From Acholoe squamosa (lineage: Eukaryota > Annelida > Polychaeta > Phyllodocida > Polynoidae): a DNA stretch of 64,000 nucleotides. This document shows positions 4,749-46,046 of this stretch, in pieces (the stretch's first letter is position 1; each line of letters begins with the position of its first letter). The notes beneath the pieces were generated by a model. That model was given only the letters and a program-made list of their open reading frames with translations, made no database searches and had not been told where the DNA came from. The translations under genes and the position numbers were made by a program. Location of the stretch: assembly GCA_949317995.1 (NCBI GenBank), contig OX439052.1, forward strand, positions 42,528,599 to 42,592,598, in the 5' to 3' direction.

Positions 4749-4801
<53 letters not shown>
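4749..4801. repeat. (TA)n microsatellite, left border of motif element copy 1
   Basis: Pure TA dinucleotide tract of about 53 bp. It directly abuts the left terminal inverted repeat of the element that follows, and a matching tract sits at the other end. Confidence 0.95.
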
Positions 4802-4803
<2 letters not shown>

Positions 4804-5292
4804 TCATTCCAAGATTTACTGGGTCATAGCTAAAATTTCCATATGGTTTGGGTGGGTCCTGGGGCATAATTTATCTTCTAGGTGCATTCAAACATGAATT
4901 TTACACGATGAGGCGTGAGTGAATTCTTTTTCAATGTGACCATCCAGACCCTCACAAAAGAGCACAATTTTTCTTATTATATACAATCAAGAGGTACCCT
5001 AGGGGGGTAACCTCCATAGAAACTTTTTTGATGTACTTAGAGAATTACCCAAGCCAGGTAGGTAATAGTGATTTTCAATGCACACCAAATTCACTCATGC
5101 CTCACGGTCTTTTACCTCTAAACAGAAGTAAATTTCATTACTACATACAGATTCTGTACTCTATACACACTTTTAGGCTGTATGTATCATGTCTGAAAAA
5201 GAATTACGATCATATACCACCTGGTTGGGCTGTATGGGGTGTCTCATCGCAAAGTGAGGCGTAAGTGAACTGCGGCAGGAAAAACAGCGCGG

Positions 5293-5328
5293 GAACAGGA
5301 AGTCATACAGGAAGATGACTTCCTGTTC
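5293..5328. repeat. Perfect 14-bp-arm hairpin with ETS-like cores
   Basis: GAACAGGAAGTCAT (5293-5306) is followed after 8 bases by its exact inverse complement (5315-5328). The arms contain the ETS-like core AGGAAGT. It lies 24 bp from a motif copy and is missing from element copy 2. Confidence 0.85.
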
Positions 5329-6485
5329 TCCTGCTGAAATGCCTCACATCTGGGTCTCAGCAAAATCAACTCAGAGGATCTGGCACAGAGCTTGACGAAA
5401 AGTCCATACAGAATTTTTCTAAAAATTGTTCATCAACTACACATAAAAGTTAAGGAAATTCAATAAAAATTGCCCCGAAATTTTGTTAAAGATGTGTGTG
5501 GGTGTCCGTAGATCATTTTTTGTGTACCAAAACGATGTATTTTAGGTGCCAGGTGGTAAAATGTGCCACCGGGAGACACTTGGGATACTGCTTGGGCCAT
5601 TTTGGATGCATTGGGGCAAGATTTTTCCTTTTGCAGAAAAGTGAGGCGTGCGTGAATGATCGTTTCCCCGGCCAGATTTTGCCTTCTGATGGTCCAATTC
5701 ATGTATCCTTGGGTCTAAATTGACGATAATTTCTTAGAATAAAGTCCCCTACATGTGTAAGATGCATCTTTGGCCATGTTTGGGTGTTTTGAGGTGACCC
5801 CCTCCCCCAATATGGGTCTGTATGGCAACATTTTTGCCCCGTCGTGAACTTTAAGGCCCTCTAACAGCCAAATTTAGCCTTTTTCTATGGTTTTCTGAGC
5901 TTATATTCCTTTTTCTACCATTATTCTTTTCTTTTAGTGTGTTAAACCTCCTATGGGATCAAAAACACAGCCATATTGACCACTTTAAGTGTTAGCGTTC
6001 ACTCACGCCTCACACGTTCACTCACGCCTCATGAAAGACAAGATGGCCTCCCACTGGTCATCATGTAGGTTTGAGGGAAACTTTTTGTGTTTGGTGTGTT
6101 AGATATATCCTACCTCTATTATAATAACCAGGTGAGTTCACCTTTGCACAAAGCCCTTACTACTCTAATACTATATTTCTTGAATTCACTCACGCCTCAT
6201 TTTCTGTATTTTGGCCAGGAATGGCATATCTAATGCACATAGCTCTATCATATTTCACTATGATATACCCCTATGGTACCCCTAACTCACACAACTGTCA
6301 ATGGTTAGATTCTGGATGATTTATTTTCAAAGAATTTTAGTGGTGGCTGAAATTCTATGTTTCTGATATATATGCGGTCACTAAAAATTTCCATAATATC
6401 CTAATTGGTTCTGATCTTTTTTTTCTTTTTTTTTTTTTTTTTTTGGGGGGGGTTATTGACCATCTTTTTTAAGTATACAGGAACA

Positions 6486-6975
6486 TGTGAGTTATTAAAA
6501 AAGATTATTCTGAACTGCATGTCAAGCGCGCATTTGCGAGAAGTGTAAAAATTTTGCGAATTTATATTTTCAAAGTCATGGTTGACACTGAAGATGGGCC
6601 TTATGTGTGTATAAATGCCTCTAGATACAACCTCATTTCTCATTGTGTGGGGGACCCATTGTTAGTAAAGCTGAGGTATCGCCCTTCTTGTAAAGATTGA
6701 TGAAATGTGAGGCGTGAGTGAACCATATCCATTTTTGTTTTTTTTATGGTTAAAGTTAAAGTGTTAATAGGACAACCTATCATCTTGTGTGGTGTTCCTA
6801 TCATTTCTATTCCACAATAGACATATTTGAGTTATCAAAAAAAAGAGTATTTGGTGTATGTTACTCTGTACCGCATGTCAAGCGCATGTTTCCGAGAAGT
6901 GTAGAAATTTTGTGAATTTATATCTTCAAAGTCATGGTGGACACTGAAGATGGTCCTTATATATGTTAAAATGAC
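6486..6975. repeat. Internal direct duplication of element copy 1
   Basis: About 130-150 bp around 6500-6640 is repeated at 6855-6975; both carry GCATGTCAAGCGC and GACACTGAAGATG. Each repeat is followed by a minus-orientation motif (6708 and 7081). Element copy 2 carries the corresponding pair of units around 14060-14400. A T-rich run ending in eight G lies at 6418-6451. Confidence 0.75.
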
Positions 6976-7587
6976 TCTAGATAGGTAGTACAACCTCTTA
7001 ACTTATTGTCTGAGTGTATTTACTGGTATATGATAGTGTATTGCTGAGCTGTGGTCATTCTCGTAAAGATTGATGAGACGTGGGGCATGAGTGAATTTCG
7101 TTGAATATTATTAGTCTCAACGCAGGCGCTGAAGACACAGTACTGGTATTATATAGGAGGTAAACTGCGATTGTAATATAAAGTACACATATTGGAGACA
7201 ATGGAGAGCTATTATCATGATTGTATAAGTGTTTTATTACTGAGCTAGACTAAAATTAGGAAATTGGAGAAGTAATTCCTATTTTTCAGCATTTCCAAAC
7301 TTTTCGCCGACGCATAATTTGAAGAGTTTCCAACTCTTACTTCAACTGTTTGGTATACATAAGGATATATATTGTACCAGTTTGTACAAAGAATTTGGTG
7401 CAGCTAGATCTATATTTAGTAGTTATAATCATGCTGCAACTGTTTCCGTTCACTCACGCCTCATGTTTTTAGAAGGTTTTACGGCATCTGTGATAAAAAC
7501 TGACATGTTAGGAGTTTGATCCTTGAATGAAACTTTTTAATAAGCCAAGAAATAGGACTATCAATAATCCAGTAAATCTTAGAATGA

Positions 7588-7590
<3 letters not shown>

Positions 7591-7652
<62 letters not shown>
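7591..7652. repeat. (TA)n microsatellite, right border of motif element copy 1
   Basis: About 62 bp of pure TA repeat abutting the right terminal inverted repeat at 7590. Confidence 0.95.
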
Positions 7653-7654
<2 letters not shown>

Positions 7655-8100
7655 GGCTAGTTCCTCATTATATGACCCGATCATTAGACATGTATTTTTT
7701 GTATCACCACAAGGATATTCTAGAGAGAGATATGTCATATCTAAAGTTTCCACTTACCTACGATCCTCCCATGTGATCACTTGTAAGCGTCACCTGCAAA
7801 ATGAAGAAATGAAGTGAATGTTTTGGAGGCACTAGGAGAAAAAAACAGCTCACACTATACATAAGTTCCCTTGATGGTCAAATACATAATTTGAGTACCT
7901 TTCTATATCGCTTTTACATCTTGAATGACCCCAATCATTGTGAATGGCAAGGAAATGGCTCCATACTTCATAGAATTTGAGCTTAATACCAAGCTGAAAT
8001 GAAAGCCGTACCAGGGGAAAAAGAGCCTGGTTCAGGTTTGCTGAGGGCATCTCAAGGGTATCTAGTTAGTGCAGTGCGTGTCTGCACTGGGACAAAGGAA
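7655..8100. repeat. Background repeat, paralogous to 24520-25090
   Basis: Similar blocks in the same order at both places include a stretch with rising similarity from 7970 onward (compare 24955-25080). It is part of the collinear duplication that also pairs 10146-12110 with 26850-29480. No coding potential is recognised. Confidence 0.55.
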
Positions 8101-8131
8101 ATGCTATCATATGGAGAGATAGGGTAAACAA

Positions 8132-8541
8132 ACCCAGCAAATTGTCGTCATCTGTCGCCATGATTGGTCATCAATGGTGACTCCTTTTTGAGTGATAACT
8201 AGTTCCGTCATCTTTAGCCACTGTGTATTAGACTCACATGGCATAGCAATTGCTATTCCTGGTGATCTTGTGCTATAACGACCTTGTGTTCCATCTAGCG
8301 ACATGTGTGAGCCACTTCACACAGGTTGACGAGGACTTACGACAATTTGCTGGGAAAGGAGCGATTCTAAAAAAATTATTGCAAAGATACACTCAAAACC
8401 TGGAAGCTCCGAAACTTGTCAGTGGTGACGACCTAAAGTCGTCCTTTTGACTACCTCGAATTATAGTTTTAGGTATTGTCAGGCTGAAGACCTAAAGTCA
8501 TCACTACTGACGAGTTTGGGATCTTCCATGTTTTCAGTGTA
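8132..8541. repeat. Nested foldback repeats with reiterated GTCGTC/GACGAC
   Basis: Two inverted-repeat pairs are visible. Outer: CCCAGCAAATTGTCGT at 8132-8147 against its inverse complement near 8339-8354. Inner: arms 8388-8432 and 8497-8541, 45 bp each and about 80 percent complementary. The phrase GACCTAAAGTC occurs twice (8430-8440, 8489-8499). This is probably a foldback or MITE relic; no ORF spans it. Confidence 0.6.
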
Positions 8542-9186
8542 AGGTTTGGACAGGATATTACTCCTTGTATTGGAAAAAGGGAGCGCCTTGTGTAATGAAG
8601 TGAACAGCAACAACATCTTAAGATGATTTGCCCAAAATAATCAATGTGAAGGTTTTTTTTTCAACATAGTACGAATAATCAAGACTTTTGAAGCTGGACC
8701 ACAATTCCTATAGTGATGTATTTGAGGTATTTGGGCTGTGTATGAGTTTATGAGAAAATAGAATAGCAGTATAGACTTCGGCTCAACCGATATTAAGTAA
8801 GGAATATAAGTCCCCCACTTTAGGCATGAGTCGATTGTTATCCATACCTTACTAACTTTATTACATGATTAACCAATAAATAATCAATAACAAATCAACC
8901 AAAAGCATGTTGGAAAAATATCAACCAGACTAAGCTGGCAGTGTGACTCCCTATTGATATTGCCACAGGGTTTGGTAGTAGTGTGAACTCTCCAGCAGTA
9001 CAGAGCTGTCCCTGCCTGTATTTATAACCATAATGCCATTCTCACTTTGCGCATGTGACAAAGCAGGGGTTGCTACTACGTAGGGCTGGAGAACTAAAGG
9101 TTATTTGCAGTTAATCAACACCTGTGTCCCAGTGGAGCAGGCGGTATAGCATCATATTCAAAGTCCTACACTGAAATAGGTCTTCC

Positions 9187-9396
9187 TGACAAAGTGACAT
9201 GTACACCCATGTCAACTTGATTTGACACAGAGAGCACATGTCAGTGGCACATGTGCACATATGTCACCATGACGACTGTAGCACACTGTAATCCTCATAT
9301 GATTTGACATGTCTTAAAATGCCACGTCATCTGTGAGTTGACTAAGGTCACGGCCATGTCAAAGGCACTTGACATGTAATGGTTTGACGTGTAATG
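9187..9396. repeat. Cluster of TGACATGT / ACATGTCA motifs
   Basis: About ten TGACA, TGTCA or TGACG words fall within 210 bp, several in the palindrome-like context TGACATGT or CACATGTCA (near 9198, 9237, 9261, 9308, 9355, 9380). The density looks well above chance for AT-rich DNA, but this was judged by eye. Confidence 0.5.
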
Positions 9397-9397
9397 A

Positions 9398-9558
9398 AGA
9401 TACAGAGATTATAGACTGTGGGTTAGCATACAATCTTGATATTTTCACTGACTCACAATCCTGAATACATCAACTGGAGAGGTTAGACACCTTATGTGTG
9501 GGTCAGTGAAAATACCAAAGGACTGTATTCTAACCCATAATCTATAATCTCAGTATCT
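9398..9558. repeat. Foldback element with about 60-bp arms
   Basis: Left arm 9398-9457 and right arm 9497-9558 are near-perfect inverse complements over long stretches (AGATAC, GAGATTATAGA, GGGTTAG and TATTTTCACTGAC occur in both). The 39-bp centre is unpaired. The size fits a small foldback MITE; no clear target duplication is seen. Confidence 0.8.
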
Positions 9559-9689
9559 ACTGTACAGGGAGACATATGGCATTGCCATGCACCTCCATGC
9601 CCTTGTCTTATCGACTGCATAGAGGTCCTCAGTAAAGTAGAAGTTCTGTAGATAGGAAAAAGTGCCTTAGTGTTGCAGGAGGATGTTGC

Positions 9690-10010
9690 TCCTTTAGTAA
9701 AAGGAAGAGCTTGTTTCCAGTCCTTGCTTTTCATGTAGCTATTACTTGTCCCTTTTGTTGCTCACAAGTGGTCATTCAAGTACGGTGCTAAAAAAGGGGG
9801 ATTTGAGTAGGTACCTAGTTGGGAGAAGTCAATCAGTATAATAAACTATAGAGCGTGTGACATGAGTAGGTACCTGGTAGTGCAGCTCTCTCTATTTTAA
9901 ACAAGGCAGGTGACTTTGCAGACTAATGTGGTGAGTGCAAGTACTTAAGTGAAGCAGTGCACAACTTGTTTAGAAAAGAGGGCACATACTCAACAGCTCT
10001 TTTCACAATA
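9690..10010. repeat. Dispersed repeat R3, copy 1 (paralog at 39500-39860)
   Basis: Strong similarity over about 320 bp with 39500-39860, including GTGACATGAGTAGGTACCTG and GGCACATACTCA. Short minus-strand frames in both copies share a string around EYVPSFLN, but flanking frames disagree and contain stops, so I treat it as a non-coding repeat. Confidence 0.7.
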
Positions 10011-10145
10011 GGAGCAACACCCTCCTGGTCTGTGGGACTATGATATCCCCTGCCTTTTATTATAGGCCTGTCTTGATTAAACCATTGGTACATAGCTATT
10101 GACTGCTCTTGACCCTTACATCTCACAGTATTACCTAGCACTCAG

Positions 10146-10298
10146 GTGAATGGATCAGAAATGTACAGAGCTAATGTTGACGCTATCACGGTACCAGTGT
10201 ATGACTTGTACTTCCTTGGTCCCCTCAGTTCTGCCTTTGCCAAGATCCTTAATGACTCCTGGCATCAAATGACAGGTAACCAGAGGCTTCAGGTGGTG

Positions 10299-10338
<40 letters not shown>

Positions 10339-10420
10339 AATCACATATTGCCATTAGTTACCCATTGCACAGGGTGGCAGGAGTATATAGATACTGAGCT
10401 CATTTTGCTGGTGATAAAAA
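10146..10420 (+). repeat. Dispersed repeat R4, copy 1 (paralog at 26850-27130)
   Basis: Shares ACAGAG, GCTAATGTTGA, GCTATCA and GACTCCTGGCA with 26850-27130. In both places it lies 300-600 bp upstream of repeat unit R2, so order is conserved. The sequence ATGACAG followed by GTAACC looks like an exon end and donor in both copies. The encoded peptides (ANV-AI-VP...) are not recognised. A (TA)n tract (10303-10335) interrupts copy 1. It may be an exon relic. Confidence 0.45.
10303..10335. repeat. (TA)n microsatellite
   Basis: About 33 bp of TA repeat; absent from the paralogous site near 27040. Confidence 0.9.
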
Positions 10421-10451
10421 CTATTAATCTATTTAGCTTTTATATGTCTTA

Positions 10452-10566
10452 CCCCTCTCTCTCTCTCGCTGTACTTCCCTCCTGTCTATGTCTGTCTGTC
10501 TGTATGTCTCTGTCTCTGTCTGTCTGCATGCTTCTCTCTGTCTATCTCTCTCTCTTCCCATTGTCC
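10452..10566. repeat. Pyrimidine-rich CTCT / CTGT tract
   Basis: CT-rich low-complexity stretch with runs of CTCT and GTCTGTCTGT. It gives rise to a spurious leucine/serine-rich reading frame. Confidence 0.85.
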
Positions 10567-10984
10567 TGTGCTCAACCTTGACTGTCTCTTTTCTCTGACC
10601 AGACGGTCATTTACAACCATCCCTTATCCTTTTCATGTTACACCTAACAGTGCTTGATTTTTTCGGACCAAGCTGGAGCCACCTAGCTGCTAGTTCTATC
10701 CTCGAAGCCTGTTTATATTGATGGTTTGAGCTGTCCTACTACAGGGCTGAAATGTTCTTGTCATATAGGGCCTGTTTGCTAAGACTAGATTAAAAATTCT
10801 ACCTTACTTTTTTTGTTTCCTAAGGACACATCTATTGACATTCAAGCGAGGTTTGTGGCTGAAAGCCTTTAGTAGGTTAGAGTCCTAGTTCCATTGCAAT
10901 AGATCCTGCAAACCTTTGCTAATACAATGGATTTTTTTTCTTTACAGTTGCAATGTCATAAATCATTAGATTAGCAAAAATGTG

Positions 10985-12105
10985 CCCAACCAACTGTAGT
11001 GGAACAGTGACTTAATGCTGAAGCATGCTGAAGCATGCTGAGAAAAACCTTTTCATTGTTTATCCTCTAGTGTCAAACTTCAAACCTTAGACTCTTTTGC
11101 ACTCTGCAAGTAATTGAGACTATTTCCAGGATCTTCTTTCCAATATAGGTACTTTGGGGCTGAGGGGCACTGCGTGGGAGAATGTCCTGTGTCTAGACAC
11201 ATCCTCAAGGCTGACAAAGGCTGTAGGCCCAGATAACTCTATCACTCAGTGATGCTAAATCCTAAGGTTAGGGAGAGATACGACACCTACTCAGACCCTT
11301 GGGGCATTGATATAAAGGTCACTGAGTCCGAGAGGGTCAAGGCATGCTAGCACAAATCATTTATAATAATGTTTCTTTTTTCCATTTAGGTAAAGGACAA
11401 GTGTTACAGGTTTTTCATAATTGATCATATTTGAATAGAATATCTGCAACTATAATTCCGTACAAATTTGGAGGATTATATATCTAAGCTAGTGTCCTCT
11501 ATAAAGCAACTAATTTGATATTAAATATTCTATACACCCAAGTTCCATAGTAATGCTTTATCCCCAAAGTTTCTTTTTATAACAAGTCGGTATTGGCTCA
11601 TCTAAAAAAACAAAAAAAGAAATGTTTTACAAGACAAGATCTCTATGGTGAAAGGCTAAAGATATCATTTCCGGATACCCTTAACAATTGGTCAAAACAA
11701 TTTCCTGTTTTTGACATTAACTGCCTTCTTTATCTCTTGAGATTATTTTCCTCTAGGTGCTGTAACATGCTGTGACCTATCATGTGAATGGGTTCCACAT
11801 AACAAATTAATTCCCATGTAGGGATTATTTGTTCCATTGGCTATATTTCGATCCCCGTTATTTAACAGTAGACTCACCTTATATAAAATGATGGTACAAC
11901 CAGACCCCTTCAATTCATAGTGGGATCCTTTACTCTAATGACATTACAGGCCTGCATCTAGTTGTCACTTAAGATTGCAATGGTACATAGTATATAGAGT
12001 AGGGGAAGCATCATGCCTACAATCACCAACTCTAATGTTGAGGGTTTCACATCATAATGGATGTGTCTAGTCACACCATGTCGAGAAATGCCTTCCTGAG
12101 GTGAA
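10985..12105 (+). repeat. Repeat unit R2, oldest copy (U0), with Cys-rich exon-like relic
   Basis: A diverged relative of the three units at 27480-33470, sharing order and many short blocks to its end near 12105. Near 11140-11225, after the acceptor-like tract ending ATATAG, a frame reads FGAEGHCVGECP followed by a further Cys-containing stretch; the FGA-CV-CP pattern resembles a furin-like cysteine-rich module of EGFR-type receptors. The frame stops soon after, and the younger units carry a stop where U0 has the histidine. This is a weak suggestion of a relic exon, not a gene call. The distal 200 bp resembles the MITE with AGGCCATTTC ends. Confidence 0.4.
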
Positions 12106-12109
12106 CCGA

Positions 12110-13122
12110 TAGTTACCAAGCTATCTTACATAAAGGCATTTAATACTGTTTCCCACCACATACTAATACAAGCATTATCTGATTATGGACTTAGTGACAA
12201 TATATGTGATTGGTTTAAGTCCTATCCGACAAATAAGACTCAGGAAGTTTGGTGTGAATACCAAATTTTGCCTATAATGTATGGAGTGCCACAAGGCTCA
12301 ACAGCAGGTCCTATTTTGTTCATTATCTATATAAATGTCCTGTTGAAGCAGGGAGGAAACTGCAATATAGTTCTTTATGCTGATGATGCTGTGGTTTCCT
12401 CCACTGATCCGAGGGAGCTACAAGTCGCTTTAAACAAGTTGGTGTGTTATAGACAGTGTAATGATAAATCAGAAAAAAAGCACAATGGATGTTCATTGGC
12501 CCACCACCGACCATACATCCCAATTTCTATATTAGGACAGTCAAACAGGAAGAAGTACAAGCCTTCATATATTTGGGTGTAATCTTAGATAATAACATAT
12601 CCTTCTATAAACATATGTTAGTACTGTATATGATAGGGTAAACTCCAAGGTTATACAGTTAGCTACAATAAGAAAATATACGTTAATACTGCTCTGAATA
12701 TCTATACCAGCACCATTCTTCCTCATTATGAGTATTGTGATGTAATCTATGATGATAACTGTAAAGACCAACTCAAAGAGTTGCAGCTCCTTCAAAACAA
12801 GGCGTTGAGAATAGTATATAATGTCAGGCTTGGACCAAACCCAAGCATGACCACAAGACAAACTCATGATAGGGCCAATGTCAAAAGTCTGAGAGAGAGA
12901 AGGTTTTTATACACTTAATTTACTGTGCCTTAGATCTAAAAAGTAATGTTAATCTCATTGACAATAGGGATTTATCAACCAGGCTTTCAAAGGTACGAGG
13001 TACCATTGCACTCTCATCAAACATCCTATATATTACAGCGATAAACTGCTGGAAAAACCTCTGTGAAAAATACACTGATATTCTGGAAAAAGAATTATTC
13101 AAATTGTTTTATTATACCAATT
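12110..13122 (+). pseudogene. Decayed LINE (non-LTR retrotransposon) reverse transcriptase, 3' part
   Basis: Translated pieces match the C-terminal half of a CR1/Jockey-type reverse transcriptase. KAFNTVSHHIL (about 12137-12170) and DWFKSY occur before the open stretch at 12268-12582, which carries the fingers motif GVPQGSTAGPILF (12286-12324) and the catalytic box YADDAV (12376-12393). Downstream, in shifting frames, are YLGVILDNNISF (12570-12605), ILPHYEYCDVIY (12715-12750) and LQLLQNKALRIVYN (12783-12824), then a C-terminal WKNLCEKY-type tail ending near 13120. Frameshifts and stops separate the blocks, so no functional enzyme is made. The family replicates by target-primed reverse transcription. 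No 5' ORF or endonuclease is seen. It abuts the end of unit R2. Confidence 0.85.
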
Positions 13123-13271
13123 AATATAGACTGGTTCAGGTCAGTCTGGTAGCTGGTATTTCCACTTCTAGACAATAATCTTATAATTTGTCATTGTAGC
13201 AGCTGGTATTTACTACTGCTCATTGTATTTCATTTCCAAGTAAGTAGGTATGGCTGTCTTGTTTTATAAGG

Positions 13272-13345
13272 GCCACACACATCACAGTCATGATGCATGA
13301 ATGCATTCTTGGTAATGAGCTCTGTAGTGCTGCATTAATGCATCA
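13272..13345. repeat. Short dispersed repeat, paralog at 37078-37150
   Basis: Both copies share CACAGTCATGATGCA, GAATGCATTC and a terminal ATGCATCAA. The block is itself imperfectly palindromic (TGATGCAT at one side, ATGCATCA at the other), so it may be a tiny foldback element. Confidence 0.6.
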
Positions 13346-13420
13346 AGCTGACCCTATTGTATAGATGCAGTCGCTTATGATTGGCATGATGCACCAGGTG
13401 AGCACTGCACTATACATACA

Positions 13421-13424
13421 TTAT

Positions 13425-13477
<53 letters not shown>
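13421..13477. repeat. (TA)n microsatellite, left border of motif element copy 2
   Basis: TA tract with one interruption (AATATA near 13435). It abuts the inverted second copy of the motif element. Confidence 0.95.
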
Positions 13478-13481
<4 letters not shown>

Positions 13482-14815
13482 ACATCTTGGCATATTAACT
13501 CCTAAGGTGTCACTTTTTATCACAGATGCCGTAAAACCTTCTAAAAAAGGGGAATGTTACCGATTGTATTCAATCAAACATGAAAAACGCCACTAAAAAG
13601 ACTCCTAGAAATACCAAATATTATAGCCAGACTTGTACAATGTATGACTTTATGTATACCAAAAACTGAAAGTGAGGCCCAAAAACTCTGGAAGTTACAT
13701 TTTGGCAGAAAAATTGGAAAGATTTGGGAATTTATTCTTCCATTTCTTAACTTTAGCCTAGCTCATTCAAAATCCTTCATACAGTGGCTATATTAATTGT
13801 CCATTGTTTCTAGTAGAACTGCTGTACAGAATAATTACAATTAGCCTGATATATAATACTTGTATTGCATAGTCAGTACCTGCGTAGAGGCCATATCACA
13901 TGTACCATCAGTAATGTTCCCTATTTATTAACCTCTCAAAGAATGGCCACAGCTCATCTATACATCATCATATTCCATTGGCATCACATAAACAATGATA
14001 AAAGAGTTTGTAATGCATATCTAGAGTCATTCAAACATGCATAAGGCCCATCTTTAGTGTCTAATACACTTTAAAAATTAAAAATCACAACATTTTGTAC
14101 ATTTGTCACTACTCGCACATCCCATATGGTGCTAAAATATATCTTTCCATACACCAAATAGTCTTTTCTCATAAGCCAAACATGTCTACAATTGAATACA
14201 AATGATAGAAACACCTTACAAGATAATAGGTTGGCACTATAAAAATAGACTCTAATCATCTCAAAAATGCTTGTAGCCATCAGTAACGTTCACTATTCAT
14301 ATGTGGTGCTAAAATATATCTTTACATACACCAAGTACTCTTTTCACACAGGCCAGACACATCTTCAATTGAGAAGAAATGCTACAAAAACTATACAAGG
14401 TGGTAGGTTGATACTTTGACCATCCAGTAATATCTGTAAACATCAGTAACGTCCCTGGAAGGTTACTGATCGCGGTGTGCATTGAAAATCACTTATATGT
14501 ACCTGGCATGGGTAATTCCTGGAGTACATAAACAAATTTTTTTATAGAAGACCCCCACAAGGTACCTCTGCATATAACAAGACTGGTGATATTCCCTGAC
14601 CAGGTTAGATGGACTCTATCAGTAAGTTCCACTCTTGAAAATTCATAATTAAATGCATATAAAAATTAGAATATGCCCTAAGATTCACCTTAACCATATG
14701 GAAATCTTAGCTATGACCCCCCACTAAGGAATAAAAATATTAGTAGTGGTGTAGAAGTGTTTCCCTTGCTATTATATGCCCAAGGAACCACATGAGCAGT
14801 TAACCTTGGAATGAG

Positions 14816-14817
<2 letters not shown>
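13478..14817. mobile_element. (TA)n-bounded TIR element, copy 2, inverted (motif ATCAGTAACGTTCC)
   Basis: Lies exactly between (TA)n tracts. Its right end, read on the minus strand from 14817, gives GCTCATTCCAAGGTTAACTG, the family inverted repeat; the left end is degraded. Reverse-complemented, it aligns with copy 1 in several blocks: 14725-14440 with 4820-5110 (shared GGTCATAGCTAA, TTTCCATATGG, GAGGTACC, GAATTACCCA, TGATTTTCAATGCACACC), 14060-13870 with 6600-7130, and 13540-13500 with 7470-7510 (shared ATCACAGATGCCGTAAAACC). The middle is shorter by about 1.4 kb. No ORF of note. Confidence 0.75.
13550..14632. repeat. Dispersed motif array in copy 2, ATCAGTAACGTTCC type
   Basis: Sites: 13550-13564 (minus, GGGAATGTTACCGAT), 13907-13921 (plus, ATCAGTAATGTTCCC), 14279-14293 (plus), 14442-14456 (plus), 14456-14470 (minus) and 14618-14632 (plus). 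Five fall where copy 1 carries TTCACTCACGCCTCA, in matching orientation: 14618 with 4909, 14456 with 5090, 13907 with 7081, 13550 with 7449, and probably 14279 with 6708. The two motifs agree at about 9-10 of 15 positions. None of the six sites has the copy-1 form. Confidence 0.8.

Positions 14818-14877
<60 letters not shown>
14818..14877. repeat. (TA)n microsatellite, right border of motif element copy 2
   Basis: About 60 bp of TA repeat abutting the terminal inverted repeat at 14817. Confidence 0.95.
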
Positions 14878-27479: not shown

Positions 27480-29480
27480 AGGCTGTAAAAACCTTAATAC
27501 TGATTTTCAAGCCCTAAAGAACAAACTGCTGCCCAAAACCTTGAGATTACAGTCAGCTATTTGGTCTGGCACTCTGTGCTGAACCGAGTCAAATTGTGGT
27601 GTCTTCTTGTCTAAAAGGGGTTCCTTGGAGCTGAGGAATAGTGTGTGGGACAGTGTCCTGTGTCTACACTGCAAAAAAGGTGTTTAGATCATAAACACAA
27701 TTCTAAACATATTCTTGCAACGTTTTTGTAGTTACATTAGTTTCCTAAACATGTTTAGCCAAACAATGTGCCTAGCTCAGGTATTTAGAAATGTAGGTGT
27801 TTAGGTTTAAAATTTGTGTTTAGATATCTATGAATTTTTGTGTTTAGATGTTTATAAATTTTTGTTTTTAGATGTGTATGTGATTTGTTAGGGTTAGGAT
27901 TTGCAGACATGTATGCATTGAAAAAATAAAGGAATATCTTTTGTTTGCTTTCTCATTTACTGGGGTGGGACATCAGCAGGTATTTATCTACATGTCAAGG
28001 TCTCCAGAGATGTCAGCCACAGCTACATGTATAGACATGTATGTATACATGATGAGAGACTTCAGAAAGTACAGCAGCTTGGCAGCAAGGGCATTGCTTT
28101 ATCCATTCCAAAATAACATGAAATAGGTGTAAGTCATGGAGCATATTGACGATTTTATGGCAATGATGCTGGTGTAAGGAGAATCTAGTCAATTTTCTAT
28201 TGCTGTTTCTATTCTCATGACATTCAATAAAAAGAAACGGCAATAAACATGGGATTTGGGGACATTTGTCACAGCAATTGATTATAATTGTGTACAGATA
28301 GTCCATTCAAAGGTAATGCTGCTACCTAGTGTGGATTCGACATCCAAGCATCTAAACATATTGATGTTTAAATCTTTACACCTATTATTCAGCTGTTTAA
28401 ATTATTAACATCTACACATGTTTAGCAAAAATGTTTATGTAGTTAGAATAAAAGTGTTTATTTCCTAATTGTGTAATTGATGAAACACCTAACTGATCTA
28501 TACGTTAAGATTTTAAACATGTTTGGACCTAAACAAGTTTAAAATCTAAACACCATTTTTACAGTGTAGAGACACCCTCATGGCTGATAAATGCTGTAGG
28601 GGCCAAATCACTCTATCCTCAGTGATACTAAAGCCTATTGTCAGGGAGAGATATGGCACCCACTTACACCCTCTGCACCCTTGGGCATTCATACAAAGGT
28701 CCATGAGTCTGAAAGGGTCAAGCCCTGCTAGCACAACTCATCCATAATATGTTTCTTTTTTTCTATGTTACACATACATATCTTTTCAGGTAAAGGACAA
28801 GGGGGACAGGCCTTTCATAATTGTTCATGTTTTGATAAAACATGTTTTGATAAAAGCAACTTTATTTTGATACAACAATATCAAGTTTGCAGGATTATGA
28901 GTCTAGGTAAGTGCCTTCTATTTAGCAACTAATTTGATATTGAATATGCCATGCACCCAATTCCCATAGAAATGCTTTATCAACAAAGCTTCTTTTAATA
29001 ATTTGGTTCATTTAAATCAAACAAAAGAGAAATGTTTTACAAGACTAGATCTCTATGGTAAAATGCTACAGATAATATGTGGATACCCTTAACGATTAGT
29101 CAAAACAATTTCCTGTTTTTGACCACCACTGCATTCTTTATCCCTTGAGACTAATTATCCCTAGGTGCTGTGACCTATCATGTGGGGGAATCCAACATAA
29201 CTAACTAGTTCCCCTGATATTTCTCAAGGCACTTCCAAAGATGGTCAGACTAGGCCCCTTCAAATAGTAGTGGAACTTGCACTATAATGCCATTACGGCC
29301 CTGCGACTATTAGGTGGTCACTAATAATTGCACTGGTACAACTGCCCAACCAAACCCTATGTAATTATTATAATATCATGTGCTGATTTTATGGAGCAGT
29401 CATAGCACCTTGGCTTTGATCATCTACTCTAATATTGAGGGTTATAAATTGTAGTGGCTGTGTCTAGTCGTACCTTCCTG
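27480..29480 (+). repeat. Repeat unit R2, tandem copy U1
   Basis: First of three tandem units. From CACTCTGTGCTGAACCGAGT (27570) to TACCTTCCTG (29480) it matches U2 (30493-31605) and U3 (32348-33470) closely, apart from the 900-bp insertion at 27667-28566. The distal part (29270-29480) resembles the AGGCCATTTC-type MITE in diverged form. A 16-bp tandem GTTTTGATAAAACAT-like repeat is present in all three (28826, 30952, 32804). Confidence 0.85.
27667..28566. mobile_element. TA-target non-autonomous transposon with TGTTTAGAT arrays
   Basis: 900 bp inserted into U1. Ends: CACTGCAAAAAAGGTGTTTA and, on the minus strand, CACTGTAAAAATGGTGTTTA. It is flanked by TA on both sides (27665-27666, 28567-28568), while U2 and U3 show the uninterrupted sequence TGTCTAGAGACACC. 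TA duplication fits the Tc1/mariner group, though other TA-target groups exist. Both halves carry many TGTTTAGAT or ATCTAAACA words in both orientations. No transposase frame. Confidence 0.85.
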
Positions 29481-30492
29481 GAGCTTAATTCGAAAGATCC
29501 TGGGATCACGACCCCAGCGATCTTAGGAATAAATCAGCCTTATCCTATTAAGCGATCTTAAGAGTTGACTGGGTTCACATATCCTAGCCAGCACTAAGAT
29601 CACATCGATCTTAGCCTCAGCCTTCCTACACTATTCCAAGAAGTACTGACTAGGCACAGGGGTAAGAGTCCCAAAATAAAGGAATAGCTGTGGAGTCACT
29701 CTTCTTCACAAGAGTGCTTTTACCATCGTTCCCCATCCCCATAAGGGCTAACAAAAGAGCACAGGGTGCAGTTGACCCCCGTACAGTATTCAAGAGTTGT
29801 TCCCATGAATGTATGATTTATGCTTGTCTATTAGAAGCATTGTGCCCCCCCCACCCCAGGACAAAGAGAGAGAAGGGAATAATTACCTTACAGTGCACTT
29901 AACGCATGAGTAGCCCTAAGAGCTCTCAAGGACACTCAGCAAACGTCCTCCCTCCCCTCTTTATGTATGCAGCAGGCTATTCACTCTTTTGATCAGGAGT
30001 GTTCCCTGTAAGTGCTCTTGTACTCAGGTGAAACCACTATGCATTTCTTTCACTAAGATTGCAGTGATCTTAGTGGTGGAAATGGAATAGTGAAGTGATC
30101 CCAGGACTAGCTATTCTGGACAGGCCTGCAACCACTGCATTACATAGGGTAGACCAGCCAGGAGGCCATTTCTTAACACACTACGACTGCTGTCCTTTAA
30201 ATCGTAATGAGAACCTAATAATTTGGCCATGACAGTACCATGCACTAGTAGTCCCTAATGTCTGCACCAGTATGACTGCCCTTCTAAACCTTATGTAATT
30301 AATGCATAGCTGCTAATCGTAGTGAGCAGTTGTAGGGCAGTTCCTACGATAGCCTGGCTTATTCTTGGCATTTTTAAATTGTAGTAGCTGTGTGCAGTCA
30401 TAGTACATTGAGAAATGGCCTCCAGGTCTTATGATATGTGCCTACACTAAGATCGCTGGGGTTGGGATCCCAGGATGTTTTGATTTAAGCTC
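29481..30492. mobile_element. GAGCTTAA-ended MITE, copy 1 (holds a nested MITE)
   Basis: Ends are inverted repeats of about 45 bp: GAGCTTAATTCGAAAGATCC on the left and GAGCTTAAATCAAAACATCC on the right (minus strand), both continuing through CCTGGGATC to CCCAGCGATCTTAG. CTG flanks both sides (29478-29480, 30493-30495), consistent with the CWG target of PIF/Harbinger. The interior has GATCTTAG or CTAAGATC at several places in both orientations. A small frame at 29690-29902 is shared with copy 2 only through recent duplication. A second MITE sits at 30162-30422. Confidence 0.8.
30162..30422. mobile_element. Harbinger-like MITE, copy 2, nested
   Basis: 261 bp with ends GAGGCCATTTCTTAA and GAGGCCATTTCTCAA (minus strand). 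Flanks are CAG (30159-30161, 30423-30425), extendable to CCAGG with shorter ends. The sister MITE at 31606-32347 lacks it and keeps the empty site CCAGCCAGGTCTT near 32280, which proves insertion. It carries CTACGACTGC and inverse words as in the copy at 22800. Confidence 0.9.
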
Positions 30493-31605
30493 CTGACCTA
30501 CTGTAGTGGAACCAACGCTTAATGCTGAAGCTGAGAAAGACTTTGTTCCCTGTTCATCTTTAAGTAAAAAATTGCAATACTAAGACTTTGTTTGCACTCT
30601 GTGCTGAACCGAGTCAAATTATGGTGTCTTCCTGTCTAAAAGGGGTTCCTTTGAGCTGAGGAATAATGTGTGGGACAGTGTCCTGTGTCTAGAGACACCC
30701 TCAGGGCTGATAAATGCTGTAGGGGCCAAATCACTCTATCCTCAGTGAAACTTAAGTCTATAGTCAGGGAGAGATATGGCACCCACTTGCACCCTCTGCA
30801 CCCTTGGGGTATTCATACAAAGGTCCATGAGTCTGAAAGGGTCAAGCCCTGCTAGCACAACTCATCCATAATATGTTTCTTTTTTTCTATGTTACACATA
30901 CATATCTTTTCAGGTAAAGGACAAGGGGGACAGGCCTTTCATAATTGTTCATGTTTTGATAAAACATGTTTTGATAAAAGCAACTTTATTTTAATACAAC
31001 AATATCAAGTTTGCAGGATTATGCGTCTAGGTAAGTGCCTTCTATTTAGCAACTAATTTGATATTGAATATGCCATGCACCTAATTCCCATAGAAATGCT
31101 TTATCAACATAGCTTCTTTTAATAATTTGGTTCATTTAAATCAAACAAAAGAGAAATGTTTTACAAGACTAGACCTCTATGGTAAAATGCTACAGATAAT
31201 ATGTGGATACCCTTAACGATTAGTCTAAACAAATTCCTGTTTTTGACCACCACTGCATTCTTTATCCCTTGAGACTAATTATCCCTAGGTGCTGTGACCT
31301 GTCACGTGGGGGAATCCAACACAACTAACTAATTCCCCTGATATTTCCCAAGGCACTTCTAAAGATGGTCAGACTAGGCCCCTTCAAATAGTAGTGGGAT
31401 CTTGCACTCTAATGCCATTACTGCCCTGCGACTATTAGGTGGTCACTAATAATTGCACTGGTACAACTGCCCAACCAAACCCTATGTAATTATTATAATA
31501 TCATGTGCTGATTTTATGGAGCAGTCATAGCACCTTGGCTTTGATCATCTACTCTAATATTGAGGGTTTCAAATTGTAGTGGCTGTGTCTAGTTGTACCT
31601 TCCTG
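30493..31605 (+). repeat. Repeat unit R2, tandem copy U2
   Basis: Close match to U1 and U3 with scattered substitutions. It contains the frame with CPVSRDTLRADKCC (30679 onward), which continues the Cys-rich relic described for U0, but is broken upstream by stops. Confidence 0.85.
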
Positions 31606-32347
31606 GAGCTTAATTCAAAAGATCCTGGGATCACGACCCCAGCAATCTTAGGAATAAATCAGCCTTATCCTATTAAGCGATCTTAAGAGTTGACTGGGTT
31701 CACATATCCTAGCCAGCACTAAGATCGCATCGATCTTAGCCTCAGCCTTCGTACACTATTCCAAGAAGTACTGACTAGGCACAGGGGTAAGAGTCCCAAA
31801 ATAAAGGAATAGCTGTGGAGTCACTCTTCTTCACAAGAGTGCTTATACCATCGTTTCCCATCCCCATAAGGGCTAACAAAAGAGCACAGGGTGCAGTTGA
31901 CCCCCTTACAGTATTCAAGAGTTGTTCCCATGAATGTATGATTTATGCTTGTCTATTAGAAGCATTGTGCCCCCCCCAGGACAAAGAGAGAGAAGGGAAT
32001 AATTACCTTACAGTGCACTTAACGCATGAGTAGCCCTAAGAGCTCTCAAGGACACTCAGCAAACGTCCTCCCTCCCCTCTTTATGTATGCAGCAGGCTAT
32101 TCACTCTTTTGATAAGGAGTGTTCCCTGTAAGTGCTCTTGTACTCAGGTGAAACCACTATGCATTTCTTTCACTAAGATTGCAGTGATCTTAGTGGTGGG
32201 AATGGAATAGTGAAGTGATCCCAGGACTAGCTATTCTGGACAGGCCTGCAACCACTGCATTACATAGGGTAGACCAGCCAGGTCTTATGATATGTGCCTA
32301 CACTAAGATCGCTGGGGTTGGGATCCAGGATGTTTTGATTTAAGCTC
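31606..32347. mobile_element. GAGCTTAA-ended MITE, copy 2
   Basis: 742 bp, same ends and interior as 29481-30492 without the nested MITE, flanked by CTG (31603-31605, 32348-32350). It sits at the same place within unit R2, so it was copied together with the unit. Confidence 0.85.
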
Positions 32348-33470
32348 CTGACCTACTGTAGTGGAACCAACGCTTAATGCTGAAGCTGAGAAAGACTTTG
32401 TTCCCTGTTCATCTTTAAGTATAAAATTGCAATACTAAGACTTTGTTTGCACTCTGTGCTGAACCGAGTCAAATTATGGTGTCTTCCTGTCTAAAAGGGG
32501 TTCCTTGGAGCTGAGGAATAGTGTGTGGGACAGTGTCCTGTGTCTAGAGACACCCTCAGGGCTGATAAATGCTGTAGGGGCCAAATCACTCTATCCTCAG
32601 TGATACTAAAGCCTATTGTCAGGGAGAGATATGGCACCCACTTGCACCCTCTGCACCCTTGGGGCATTCATACAAAGGTCCATGAGTCTGAAAGGGTCAA
32701 GCCCTGCTAGCACAACTCATCCATAATATGTTTCTTTTTTTCTATGTTACACATACATATCTTTTCAGGTAAAGGACAAGGGGGACAGACCTTTCATAAT
32801 TGTTCATGTTTTGATAAAACATGTTTTGATAAAAGCAACTTTATTTTGATACAACAATATCAAGTTTGCAGGATTATGCGTCTAGGTAAGTGCCTTCTAT
32901 TAAGCAACTAATTTGATATTGAATATTTTATGCACCCAATTCTCATAGAAATGCTTTATCAACAAAGCTTCTTTTAATAATTTGGCTCATCTAAATCAAA
33001 CAAAAAAGAAATGTTTTACAAGACTAGATCTCTATGGTTAAATGCTACAGATAATATGTGGATACCCTTAACGATTAGTCAAAACAAATTCCTGTTTTTG
33101 ACCACTACTGCATTCTTTATCACTTGAGACTAATTATTTCTAGGTGATGTGACCTATCACATGGGGGAATGAAACATAACTAATTAATTCCCCTGATATT
33201 TCCCAAGGCATTTCTAAAGATGGTCAGACTAGGCCCCTTCAAATGGTAATGGGTTCTTGCACTCTAATGCCATTACAGCCCTGTACCTATTAAGTGGTCA
33301 CTAATAATTGCACTGGTACAACTGCCCAACCAAACCCTATGTAATTATTATAATATCATGTGCTGATTTTATGGAGCAGTCATAGCACCTTGGCTTTGAT
33401 CATCTACTCTAATATTGAGGGTTTCAAATTGTAGTGGCTGTGTCTAGTCGTACCTTCCTGAGGTGGATTA
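32348..33470 (+). repeat. Repeat unit R2, tandem copy U3
   Basis: Third unit. It ends without a MITE: TACCTTCCTGAGGTGG (33453-33468) is the empty form of the MITE target and also resembles 12085-12100 in U0. U3 is therefore the reference for the pre-insertion state. Confidence 0.8.
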
Positions 33471-34342
33471 TCATGTACTCAAGCTATCTTAGCTACATCT
33501 AACAAGGCAGTGGGATTCCTGAACCTATACCTTTTAGTAAATTGACTGTTATGAATTGTTAATTGTGTCTACCAATAAAAATATACTAAAATACGAGACA
33601 AGGACAGTAGACACACATTGTGTGAACATTAAAACTTTAGAATTTTAGAAACGGAGCAGAACTTAGAATTGATCAATGACCACATTAATCAGCTCTGAGC
33701 AGTATATGATGATAAACATTGGTTTAAGGTCATAAAGGGGGCAAGAACTAGTTAATGGGCAACATTACATCAAGCTTAACATTAATTGAATTCAAAGGTG
33801 CATGATGTGGACCAGAGGTAATTGCTAAATGGCAGTCTGGGTATCAAAGGAAAGATCAGAACAGAACTATCATTTCTAACCCTGCCCTTCCCTGCATACC
33901 CCACTTATCATAAATAAAGAATTTTCATTCCAGGTCCATTTCTGACCCTCAGTCATTTTTGACCCAGTTTGTCCCAACCCCTCTCACCTCTCTCATTGCA
34001 TTTATGCCACATCCAGTCCTGCCTTATCTGTTGAACTAGTTGAGTGGTCTCTCTCCTTTTATGACTTTCTGCAAAACCAGGAAAGAAGAACAAGATTGTG
34101 TTTTCTCACTTGCTTTACTTCATGTACGAGGGTTATTCTAGATTCAACTAGAATATAAAGTGATCTGAATGAAGGTATGATCTATCTCACAATCGATGCA
34201 AACCCAATATTTGCGTTATTGTGATCTAAGTATTTTCCGTCATATCCACTGCCATTTTGAAAGAATGCAAAGGAAAAAGAAGAAAAAGTAACATAGCATT
34301 CATTTTTTTGCTCATTACATGTTATGGTTTAATGATTAACAC
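33471..34342. other. Unclassified background
   Basis: No gene or element end recognised. Confidence 0.4.
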
Positions 34343-34348
34343 ATAAAC

Positions 34349-34426
<78 letters not shown>

Positions 34427-34432
34427 GTTTAT
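34343..34432. repeat. Perfect 90-bp AT-rich palindrome
   Basis: ATAAACTGTCTA (34343-34354) and its exact inverse complement (34421-34432) flank a pure TA tract, so the whole 90 bp is self-complementary. Such AT-rich palindromes can extrude cruciforms and are unstable. Confidence 0.9.
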
Positions 34433-35287
34433 TGTAATAATTTTACTGGTCTGCCACTGGGATTTTCTTGCATCTCCGAAAAAAAAGAAGTGAAACCCCA
34501 AAAAGTTATTATAGTAATCATAATTGAATGGCCAAAAGAAAAAATAACTACGCAATGCAATTCAAAATCCCCTTTTCTGTAGCAGAGAGACCATGGTCAT
34601 TTTCCACCTGGTTTCATTTTTCAACCTAATTCTATTAGAAACATTAAATGACAAGGCGTAAATATCTACCAATGAAGATATGAGAGTTGCTGTATACTGA
34701 CTACATCTCAGCGTCAAAGCATGGTGCATCGCTCAATTTACAACTGGTCAACGGTCCTTACCACTGAGCCTCGAATGCAAGCAAGGATTGACTTTTCATG
34801 CTCTTTGTGGTCCCGCACGATAGTCTGGCTGCAACCACCAAAAGCAGCCATTGGATGTTATCTGTTACAGCTGAATATTATGATACAGATTTTTCAGGCT
34901 CTTAAAGTCTTTTTCTTATTGACCATTGCTTGTATGTGGCAAATCTATTAGAATTCCTTGTATTGCTCCAAACTAGTGTAGCATTTAAAAGATTGGTGTG
35001 ATGTACTCATGCATTTGCTTAATGATTATATTTTTACATTTTTTTGTCTTTCTTTATGCATCAATATAAAATCAGTTTATTCTGCCTCTGCTAAGGTAAC
35101 TTATGTAGCGTTTCCTACTGCATGCCTAATATACAGCTTTGCTTCCAACCCTCATGGAAGGAGACTTAGAAAGGTTGACATGATCATTGTATCAAATTAT
35201 GAATTGTACTTCCACACAAGCTTAGGCCCTTTTTGTCCTTACATCACTTATGCCATCCGGCCCTTGGTGAGAGGTAAGAGGGGGCCT

Positions 35288-35289
<2 letters not shown>

Positions 35290-35354
<65 letters not shown>
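35290..35354. repeat. (TA)n microsatellite
   Basis: About 65 bp of TA. Unlike the tracts at 4.8, 7.6, 13.4 and 14.8 kb it is not next to a recognisable terminal inverted repeat. Confidence 0.9.
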
Positions 35355-35357
<3 letters not shown>

Positions 35358-35512
35358 ATTAAATATTATAACCACATAGTAACATATGGCTTTTGGATTT
35401 TCAAAATTCACAAAATTTCCTAAGGAGCAAAAATGAGAGGTAGTTATTCTATAATATCTCCCCAATATTGCCTACCTGCTTCTACTAGTACAAAGGGATG
35501 CGGGAAGCTCTG

Positions 35513-36223
35513 GAGGTTAATTCAAAAGATCCTGGGATTTCTACCCCTGCGATCTTAGTGTAGGCACATATCATAAGACCTGGCCAGTCTACCCTATCTA
35601 ATACAGTGGTTGCAGGCCTGTCAGGAATAGCAAGTCCTGAGATCACTTCACTATTCCTTTTCCAGCACTAAGATCACTCAATCTTAGTGAAAGAATTGCA
35701 TAGTTGTTTAACCTGAGTACAAGAGCACTTACAGAGAACACTCCTGATCGAAAGAGTGAATAGCCTGCTGCATACATATAGAGGGGAGGGAGGATGTTTG
35801 CTGAGTGTCCTTGAGGGCTCTTAGGGCTACTCATGCGTTAAGTGCACTGTAGGGAAATTCTTCCCTTCTCTCTCTTTGTCCTGGGGGGGGCACAATGCTT
35901 CTAATAGGCAAGCATAAATCATACATTCATGGGAACAACTCTTGAATACTGTACGGGGTTAACTGCACCCTGTGTTCTTTTGTTAGCCCATATGGGAATG
36001 GGGAACAATGGTATAAGCACTCTTATATTTTGGGACTCTTACCCCTGTGCTTAGTCAGTTCTTCTTGGAATAGTGTAGGAGGGCTGAGGCTAAGATCGAT
36101 GCGATCTTAGTGCTGGCTAGGAAAAGTGAATGCAGTCTAATCTTAAGATCGCTTAATAGGATAGGGCTGATTTATTCCTAAGATCGCTGGGGATGTGATC
36201 CCAGGATGTTTTGAATTAAGCTC
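35513..36223. mobile_element. GAGCTTAA-ended MITE, copy 3, inverted
   Basis: 711 bp in the opposite orientation to copies 1 and 2, flanked by CTG (35510-35512, 36224-36226). Ends: GAGGTTAATTCAAAAGATCC and, on the minus strand, GAGCTTAATTCAAAACATCC. Interior order is the exact reverse of copy 2. More diverged from copies 1-2 than they are from each other, so it is an independent insertion. Confidence 0.85.
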
Positions 36224-40730: not shown

Positions 40731-41107
40731 TGTAAGGGTTTGTGGCCTTACGGACCTGGGGGGTTCGGGTCTTACGGTTCGGAAAGAAAGAGTAAGACAG
40801 TATTCCAAGTGTATGCCAACGGTTAGGTTTATTACTTAATGCACACTCACGGCTGCCGGATGATATCAAAGAGGCAGCTGATATTAAAAGACAGTGGTTT
40901 ACATAGTGTGGAGGCCAGAAGGGCCTCTGACGTAGCGGCTGAGCCCTGGGCTTTATATACGGACCCAGGTGTTCGTCGTCAGATGTCCCCACAGACCCGG
41001 ATCGGTGCTGCCACCTATCCGGAACCTGAGGAACGTCCGACGACTCGACTCACCCGCCACGTCAGACGGTACCCAACTCCTATGGTTTAGTAAAGTGTAC
41101 CTCTACA
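40731..41107 (-). repeat. 3' LTR
   Basis: Base-for-base copy of 53165-53541 as far as I can read. The TATA-like GTATATAAAG is at 40960-40951 and the AATAAA signal at 40833-40828, so the transcript probably ends in this LTR. Confidence 0.95.
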
Positions 41108-41117
41108 CCACTCCCCC
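41108..41117 (-). other. Polypurine tract
   Basis: GGGGGAGTGG on the minus strand directly adjoins the 3' LTR. It is the expected plus-strand primer and confirms the orientation. Confidence 0.8.
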
Positions 41118-45537: not shown

Positions 45538-46046
45538 GACTGGGGAATCGCCCACGGGAGTAAACTACTCCTTTTTCCGGCTTTTACGGCGCCGGGGCTG
45601 GCACAAACGGAGTCTGTCTACCAGGAGACAGACTCTGGAGGAGCAGCGGGGGGTTTGCTTAGCCGGTAAAATCCAAGAAGGGAGCGAGCTCGACCGTCTT
45701 GAACGTTACCGAAAACAAATATGGCGACAGGCCAGCTTTCGTGACGTCATTTCCCCGCGGTCCGCGAGGTCACGAGAGGTCAGCCGAGACTGGACACGGT
45801 GACGTCATGCGGAAACGCACGTGCTACAGGCGGTACATCAACAAACTGATTGTTTTTAGGTAATTATCGCTCACCCCGATGACTCGACTGGGGATTTAAG
45901 TGGAGATTATGGAAAGCTTAAGCAAATCCACCGGATTATCCGTCCACTACCCATTGGTACATCATGCGGGGGCGACAAATAAGCCTTTAGGGTCAGTTGT
46001 CATCCGTTCCTCTAAATGTAAACATTACACTCGTTGTGTATACAGG
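45538..46046 (-). promoter_or_regulatory. GC-rich spacer between pol and ORF3, candidate internal promoter
   Basis: About 510 bp without an ORF on the sense strand. It contains two perfect cAMP-response-type palindromes TGACGTCA (45742-45749, 45800-45807), an E-box CACGTG (45818-45823), CCGCGG, and AAATATGGCGAC, similar to a YY1 site. All lie 180-290 bp upstream of the ORF3 start on the minus strand. This density of activator sites suggests a separate promoter for ORF3. A spliced message is the alternative. Confidence 0.45.

Follow-up and report, generated by a model that had tools for sequence, protein, structure and literature searches.

Subfamily-specific dispersed sequence tags in a DNA-transposon family of the annelid Acholoe squamosa

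INTRODUCTION

How can a short word that is scattered over ten places in one transposable element be replaced, at the same places and in the same orientation, by a different word in a related copy? The question is raised by a 64,000-nucleotide stretch of the genome of Acholoe squamosa (Annelida; Polynoidae; assembly GCA_949317995.1, contig OX439052.1), hereafter called the window, which lies at C18:42528599-42592598 in our copy of the genome (G000; 1,481,437,319 bases, 63 contigs) and holds two homologous copies of one DNA transposon, each with its own set of dispersed words, or tags. A sequence-only reading of the window had noticed the two sets and had offered two mechanisms, co-evolution with a sequence-specific binding protein and conversion among the sites of an element. 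Here we report that the tags occur about ten to an element, at fixed positions, that each branch of the family carries its own tag throughout, and that six such tag types coexist in this genome; we propose that a protein encoded by the element probably binds the tags and co-evolves with all of its sites.

RESULTS

Tags in the two window copies

Copy 1 (4802-7590, plus strand) is a non-autonomous DNA transposon of 2,789 bp; copy 2 (13478-14817, minus strand) is its homologue, inverted and truncated at its right end, and blastn aligns the two with 67% identity over 790 columns and 70% over 269, together with two shorter overlapping matches. Copy 1 carries the word TTCACTCACGCCTCA, which we call m1, at 10 places, six of them exact, three with one mismatch and one with two. 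In the left half they are site 1 at 4909-4923 (minus strand), site 2 at 5090-5104 (plus), site 3 at 5255-5269 (minus), site 4 at 5642-5656 (minus), site 5 as a 19-bp tandem pair at 5998-6012 and 6017-6031 (both plus), and site 6 at 6185-6199 (plus); further right, one tag lies inside a 3' repeat unit at 6708-6722 (minus), one in the next unit, 373 bp further, at 7081-7095 (minus; the tag with two mismatches), and the 3'-most at 7449-7463 (plus). The only other match in the window has three mismatches, and the total of 11 compares with a mean of 1.07 after shuffling (0 of 100 shuffles reach 11).

Copy 2 carries words of the type ATCAGTAACGTTCC, which we call c2, at six places, five found by matching and the sixth, at 14618-14631 (plus), recognised as the homologue of 4909 with one base deleted. 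The homologue of 5090 lies at 14457-14470 (minus), with an inverted neighbour at 14442-14455 (plus); a further tag is at 14279-14292 (plus), and the homologues of 7081 and 7449 are at 13907-13920 (plus) and 13551-13564 (minus). When up to three mismatches are allowed, ATCAGTAACGTTCC has 12 matches in the window, 5 of them inside copy 2 (shuffle mean 4.61, largest 11), and the 7 outside it are about what chance would give. The homology of the copies, the ten and six places and the four site pairs named in the sequence-only reading (4909/14618, 5090/14457, 7081/13907 and 7449/13551, each aligned in the same orientation) were all borne out.

Six tag types in one genome

The genome holds 606 exact matches to TTCACTCACGCCTCA (325 + 281), as against none to the reversed word, and the m1 places listed occur in clusters. 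Twenty m1 loci (126,720 bases) were taken from clusters among the listed exact matches, on C1 to C4. One of them, L009, holds a longer m1 element of about 6.7 kb with broken transposase-like coding pieces; another, L012, includes by chance a second element with a third word, ATCATTAACGTACC, and its first 1,500 bases, which include that other element, were left out of the count of mixed sites. De novo word counts in elements bearing transposase frames gave the words of type 855 (TTAACGTACCCC; 8 and 9 sites in two elements), type 896 (CTCACGTACGTAA; 13 sites) and type 957 (CAAGCGCGTTACA; 11 sites), and a type 929 word, TGACCAACGCTGAAG, has 10 sites in the stretches examined. With m1 and c2 from the window, six words are thus known, which in the m1 reading direction are TTCACTCACGCCTCA, ATCAGTAACGTTCC, ATCATTAACGTACCCC, GTTACGTACGTGAG, GTGACCAACGCTGAA and ATCAAGCGCGTTAC; the skeleton xTxAxxx(A/G)CG fits all of them. 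The c2 and 855 words differ by two bases, so that 855 elements also score on the c2 word. Five of the six 3' windows fetched carry a known word (929, 896, 855, m1 and 855).

The central CG is present in all six words and is changed from C to T, on either strand, in several copies; methylation of the tag may matter. Tandem expansions of the m1 tag in 19-bp units, the same step as in the tandem pair of copy 1, were seen in L028 (6 units, 2492-2601) and L025 (4 units, 2542-2613).

Uniformity within elements

The sites within one element are 0.87-1.00 alike over a 14-base core, while their flanks are 0.22-0.33 alike, which is about chance; homologous sites of different types are 0.38-0.55 alike. 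The 20 m1 loci, chosen by exact m1 matches, contain 149 tag sites of type m1 and 0 of other types, and the 13, 11 and 10 own-type sites of the 896, 957 and 929 elements are accompanied by no foreign one. A second sample was found through the DNA that separates sites 1 and 2 and contains no tag; it comprised 9 of the best 40 of 861 m1-flank candidates and 9 of the best 40 of 838 855-flank candidates, remote copies lying outside it. In the nine m1-flank copies 16 of 18 sites were m1 and two were destroyed; in the nine 855-flank copies all 18 were of type 855, 17 of them exactly, so that 34 of 36 sites in the 18 copies were of their own type and 2 were broken. No element of mixed type was seen in any of these sets, and foreign words number zero per element, apart from the look-alike pair c2/855. 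The pattern predicted by the sequence-only reading, discrete tag types that are uniform within a copy and differ between copies at homologous sites, is therefore the one found, with six types.

Between m1 and 855 elements the tags are less alike than the remaining columns. Between copy 1 and 855, tag columns agree at 48 of 99 positions and the other columns at 1065 of 1489 (p 3.9e-6); for L009 and 855 the counts are 49/99 and 971/1361 (p 1.2e-5), and between m1 elements they are 101/113 and 1058/1267 (p 0.11).

Homology and spacing of the sites

When the left halves of seven elements are aligned with MAFFT, with no use made of the tags, the tags fall into six column groups (203-205, 385-386, 562-573, 953-984, 1353-1372 and 1542-1553). 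Five words occupy these same groups with one orientation pattern. The direction in which a new word is read is arbitrary, with one flip allowed for each type, and it is the succession of orientations from site to site that agrees. The sixth word, c2, is securely placed in two groups. All six groups are filled in copy 1, L009, L058 (type 855) and 896; 929 lacks the first, 957 lacks the second, and 896 has one additional site, at column 807. Copy 2, which is short in the left half, has sites 1 (with the deleted base) and 2 in common with the others; its tags at columns 400 and 577 have no secure partner. Outside the tags, identity to copy 1 is 0.84 for L009, 0.72 for L058 and 0.45-0.48 for 896, 929 and 957. 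The sites of m1 and 855, and those that c2 shares with them, are firmly homologous at the level of aligned sequence; for 896, 929 and 957 homology appears to hold on the strength of spacing, sense pattern and patches of similarity.

Neighbouring sites are 163-202 or 344-388 bp apart, once 523 bp, in the sets tested, from which one site each of the copy 1 tandem pair and of a close pair in 957 had been dropped. The best period is 182 bp for copy 1 (equalled by 2 of 3,000 sets of sites placed at random over an equal span), 180 bp for 896 (4/3,000), 182 bp for 855 (L058; 27/3,000), 184 bp for 929 (116/3,000) and 182 bp for 957 (166/3,000), values for which the period was fitted and which come from homologous sets, so that the tests are not independent. 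The 3' repeat units, at 362-382 bp, are about twice the 182-bp step. The spacing looks like that of nucleosomes, as a resemblance only.

Transposase frames and other encoded pieces

Each of the types 855, 896, 929 and 957 has its own open transposase frame. The protein is an uncharacterised transposase with a variable C-terminal domain and, judging by the predicted fold of a relative, an RNase H-like core of the integrase type; D383, D469 and E502 are invariant in 57 relatives and, from their order, would correspond to the integrase catalytic residues. The named eukaryotic relatives are animals. A first search of the genome by transposase gave 2,661 candidates. When the four intact types are compared with one another, identity is 75-95% in the integrase-like core, 56-74% in the linker, 32-46% in the C-terminal domain and 26-40% in a helix-turn-helix-like region, where it rises to 76% for 896/929. 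The expectation in the sequence-only reading that a zinc-finger protein or a transposase would vary in parallel with the tags held for the transposase, whose frames diverge with the four types; no zinc finger was found in it by Pfam (L009 pieces and the 57 relatives).

The frames of 896 (L064) and 929 (L072+L065) are mosaic, with a recently shared body and a last part of about 126 codons that diverged anciently. Their nucleotide identity in 100-column windows is 79-97% in the body, 58-73% from about codon 748 and 43-69% in the flanks, and their synonymous distance is 1.34 in the C-terminal domain against 0.32-0.49 over all other parts. Because amino-acid selection alone does not raise synonymous distance, the bodies appear to have been exchanged between two older lineages, and the tag type would then have stayed with the C-terminal domain and the ends.

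Protein P0001 had no Pfam match and no significant match to PDB entries by sequence, and Pfam searches of 6 pieces of L009 and the 57 relatives revealed no consistent known domain, single relatives matching HTH_22 (E 0.0015), BRWD_AD (0.0057) and PTM_DIR17_Tudor (0.0071). Six sub-threshold sequence matches to PDB entries had E values from 0.12 to 0.98; the four at profile positions 648-719 were to an agenet-domain entry, two PHF19 entries and LD23602p, the last three of which we take to be Tudor domains. Foldseek gave no match at E 0.001, and no paper on the transposase signature HGKGPCDG was found in the open-licence literature.

Upstream of the transposase, types 855, 896 and 957 have fast-evolving, proline-rich coding stretches with a common RPVRQAA piece (in element coordinates, 2337-2894 in 855, 3574-3849 in L064 and 3219-3578 in L063), and a similar stretch is present in the m1 locus L018; these are perhaps exons of a second protein. 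A HypF finger was weakly matched in one upstream piece, at E 0.049 and short of the cut-off for that family.

Element ends and other features of the window

Both window copies are members of one DNA-transposon family that is sited in TA runs. Copy 1 has imperfect terminal inverted repeats, GGTCATTCCAAGATTTACTGG on the left (4802-4822, plus strand) and GGCTCATTCTAAGATTTACTGG on the right (7569-7590, minus), and adjoins unstranded (AT)n arrays at 4749-4801 and 7591-7650. Copy 2 starts with the same terminal inverted repeat (14796-14817, minus; 5 mismatches to the common form) and lacks the right one; unstranded (TA)n arrays adjoin its left end (14817-14877) and lie beside its truncated end (13411-13477). 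The common form, read in m1, c2 and 855 elements, is GGGTCATTCCAAGATTTACTGGACATG or a near variant of it, and a TA run precedes it in every end row compared, most irregularly at the left end of L023. In these three types the adjoining TA runs mask the length of any TA or TTAA target duplication. Copy 1 had no match among phages, no relatives were found in separate collections of genome contigs and viral contigs, and an Rfam scan at gathering scores gave no match.

A stretch of 867 bp at 34353-35354 lies between two long (TA)n runs; neither the m1 nor the c2 word was found in it, nor any of the family's terminal repeats, and it is either a different element in a similar setting or a chance arrangement. 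The window also contains a long terminal repeat retrotransposon (40731-53541) with minus-strand Pfam matches to reverse transcriptase, RNase H, protease and integrase-type domains (rve itself scoring below cut-off) and a 759-codon frame without a Pfam match between the integrase frame and the left repeat; its 377-bp end repeats are 100% identical, which makes the insertion probably recent. Long direct repeats, about 1.6 and 1.2 kb in length and 96-97% identical, occupy 28564-36224 together with further related pieces, and a colinear repeat of 87-95% identity links 973-2699 with 60225-62797, about 59-60 kb apart.

DISCUSSION

The tags of this transposon family come in discrete types, stand at homologous positions, are uniform within elements and differ between branches whose transposase frames diverge in parallel. 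The explanation that we consider likely is that an element-encoded protein co-evolves with all of its sites; in this scheme binding, its effect, the domain that reads the tag and selection as the cause are our inferences. The dispersed words would be binding sites of a sequence-specific protein encoded by the element itself, most likely the transposase, acting through its variable N- or C-terminal domain, or else a protein made from upstream coding exons. An element might be marked for mobilisation or activation when six or seven left-half sites and at least two right-hand ones are bound, so that only elements with matching tags would be served. If the protein of one lineage shifted its specificity, only copies whose sites also shifted would be amplified; all sites of a successful lineage would then change together while the spacers between them drift, and the outcome would be several self-specific subfamilies within one genome.

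Several observations weigh against this explanation. The helix-turn-helix-like region differs between types as the C-terminal domain does, so that either might be the part that reads the tag. A mosaic was seen once, in 896/929, where the C-terminal domain adjoins the 3' flank, and the m1-855 pair has no such C-terminal jump at third positions. One of the six 3' windows, on C15, contains no known tag and no repeated 12-mer. In types such as 929 and 957 a few bases past the core are common to some sites, and the borders of the tag are to that extent imperfectly sharp. Among the nine flank-chosen m1 copies, tags are not better conserved than flanks (911/1072 against 5943/6311 pairwise letters, a comparison that includes the two broken sites and favours the flank, which was the search query), and in the nine 855 copies tags and flanks are both 0.99 alike. 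This lack of extra conservation in the sampled copies suggests that dead copies decay freely and that the constraint, if any, acts on active lineages only.

A more specific form of the same explanation, which we hold tentatively, is modelled on the VANC proteins of VANDAL elements: a separate protein from the upstream exons, and not the transposase, would bind the tags and lift silencing or switch the element on. It would account for tags throughout the non-coding DNA and not only at the ends, including those of L009 at 4731, 4870 and 5009, between the upstream coding pieces and the transposase, and it agrees with the recognisable RPVRQAA-bearing stretches of 855, 896 and 957 and with the CpG kept in the middle of all six words; VANC21 likewise binds the non-coding parts of the element that encodes it (PMC5735166). 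Against it, the weak HypF-finger match is the only DNA-binding domain recognised in the two upstream pieces that were searched, and VANC targets are often arranged in tandem, unlike the mostly single tags found here.

More speculative, and as a whole rather doubtful, is a scheme in which one family has been split within the genome into mutually deaf subfamilies by a changeable code. In it a fixed, nucleosome-sized lattice of sites about 182 bp apart would be read by a fast-evolving, Tudor/PWWP-like C-terminal domain of the transposase, code and reader would be replaced together, and the catalytic body would pass between subfamilies by recombination.

The near-nucleosomal spacing suggests chromatin, and a host zinc-finger or chromatin protein, for which the element need encode nothing, could bind the tags, each subfamily having adopted or escaped a different one. 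We find this improbable, since the types coexist in one genome, share one grid and go with transposase lineages, and the common skeleton of the words is not expected from unrelated host factors. Gene conversion or other short-tract copying within an element, the second mechanism of the sequence-only reading, fits the data less well than co-evolution, because most tags, where shared, stop after about 14-16 bp and their flanks have chance similarity, and we consider it distinctly unlikely. In its favour, the tag has in places expanded in tandem, some sites could be homogenised by turnover of the mutually repeated 3' units (about 365 bp), and the few shared bases past the core would also suit copying. 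On the other side, left-half sites have unrelated flanks, tag-length tracts would be hard to produce at six places, and deletion ends are not enriched at tags: the 16 deletions called in 20 loci have 6 of their 32 ends close to a tag, against an expected share of 0.19 (p 0.57). That there was no shared switch at all, the sites being non-homologous or the pattern an artefact of chance or alignment, is extremely unlikely and is refuted for m1, 855 and the aligned part of c2: 896, 929 and 957 do align weakly to copy 1 (45-48%), with some sites about 10 to 20 columns off, but m1 and 855, 72% alike outside the tags, have tags within 1 column at five left-half sites and 7-12 columns apart at the sixth, spacings and orientation pattern agree in all types, and the reversed m1 word is absent from a genome with 606 exact matches to the word itself.

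The element-encoded, co-evolving protein that we favour has precedents, so the statement in the sequence-only reading that no described repeat family behaves in this way goes too far. In CACTA elements, the soybean work reports that TnpA binds subterminal repeats, that Tgmt* has 4 repeats within 159 bp and 24 within 732 bp, and that the motifs of Tgm1 and Tgmt* differ at 6 positions while the termini are conserved, for which co-evolution was proposed (PMC2613891). For VANDAL elements, two papers describe VANC proteins that bind family-specific motifs in non-coding DNA, motifs that diverge between related families and evolve together with the encoded protein in what the authors call synchronous evolution (PMC5735166, PMC10398659). 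The present family resembles CACTA elements (En/Spm, soybean Tgmt*/Tgm1) in having many copies of a short, putatively protein-bound motif that differs between subfamilies, and differs from them in that its tags are mostly single and spread over non-coding DNA at steps of about 182 bp or multiples, where CACTA repeats crowd the ends. It has no dense subterminal repeats near both ends, its ends are GGGTCATTCCAAGATTTACTGGACATG-like (m1, c2 and 855) and not CACTA or CACTG, and no TNP2-type transposase was matched by Pfam among the 57 relatives at E 0.01. With VANDAL/MULE elements that encode VANC it has in common short, family-specific motifs in non-coding DNA that switch together; VANC motifs, however, are gained through tandem repeats, whereas here the positions keep mostly single sites and the letters change, and Pfam matched no VANC protein (DUF1985 and related domains) in either upstream piece searched or among the relatives of the transposase. 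Unlike the integrase-like DDE transposases IstA, Mos1 and retroviral integrase, the protein has different terminal domains. Searches of the open-licence literature gave nothing equivalent on nucleosome-spaced transposon motifs among the titles listed, and on concerted evolution of such sites they gave satellites and centromeres but nothing equivalent. What appears to be new is that one genome holds six types and that single sites stand on a conserved grid with steps of roughly 182 bp.

The six types resemble a natural series of related codes for protein-DNA recognition, and four of them come with an open transposase frame, which makes an old question directly testable: how a protein changes its DNA specificity when about ten sites must follow. 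It offers a mechanism by which transposon subfamilies may become independent and is a possible source of orthogonal DNA-binding domains; the lattice of about 182 bp, if real, would tie the recognition code to nucleosome spacing.

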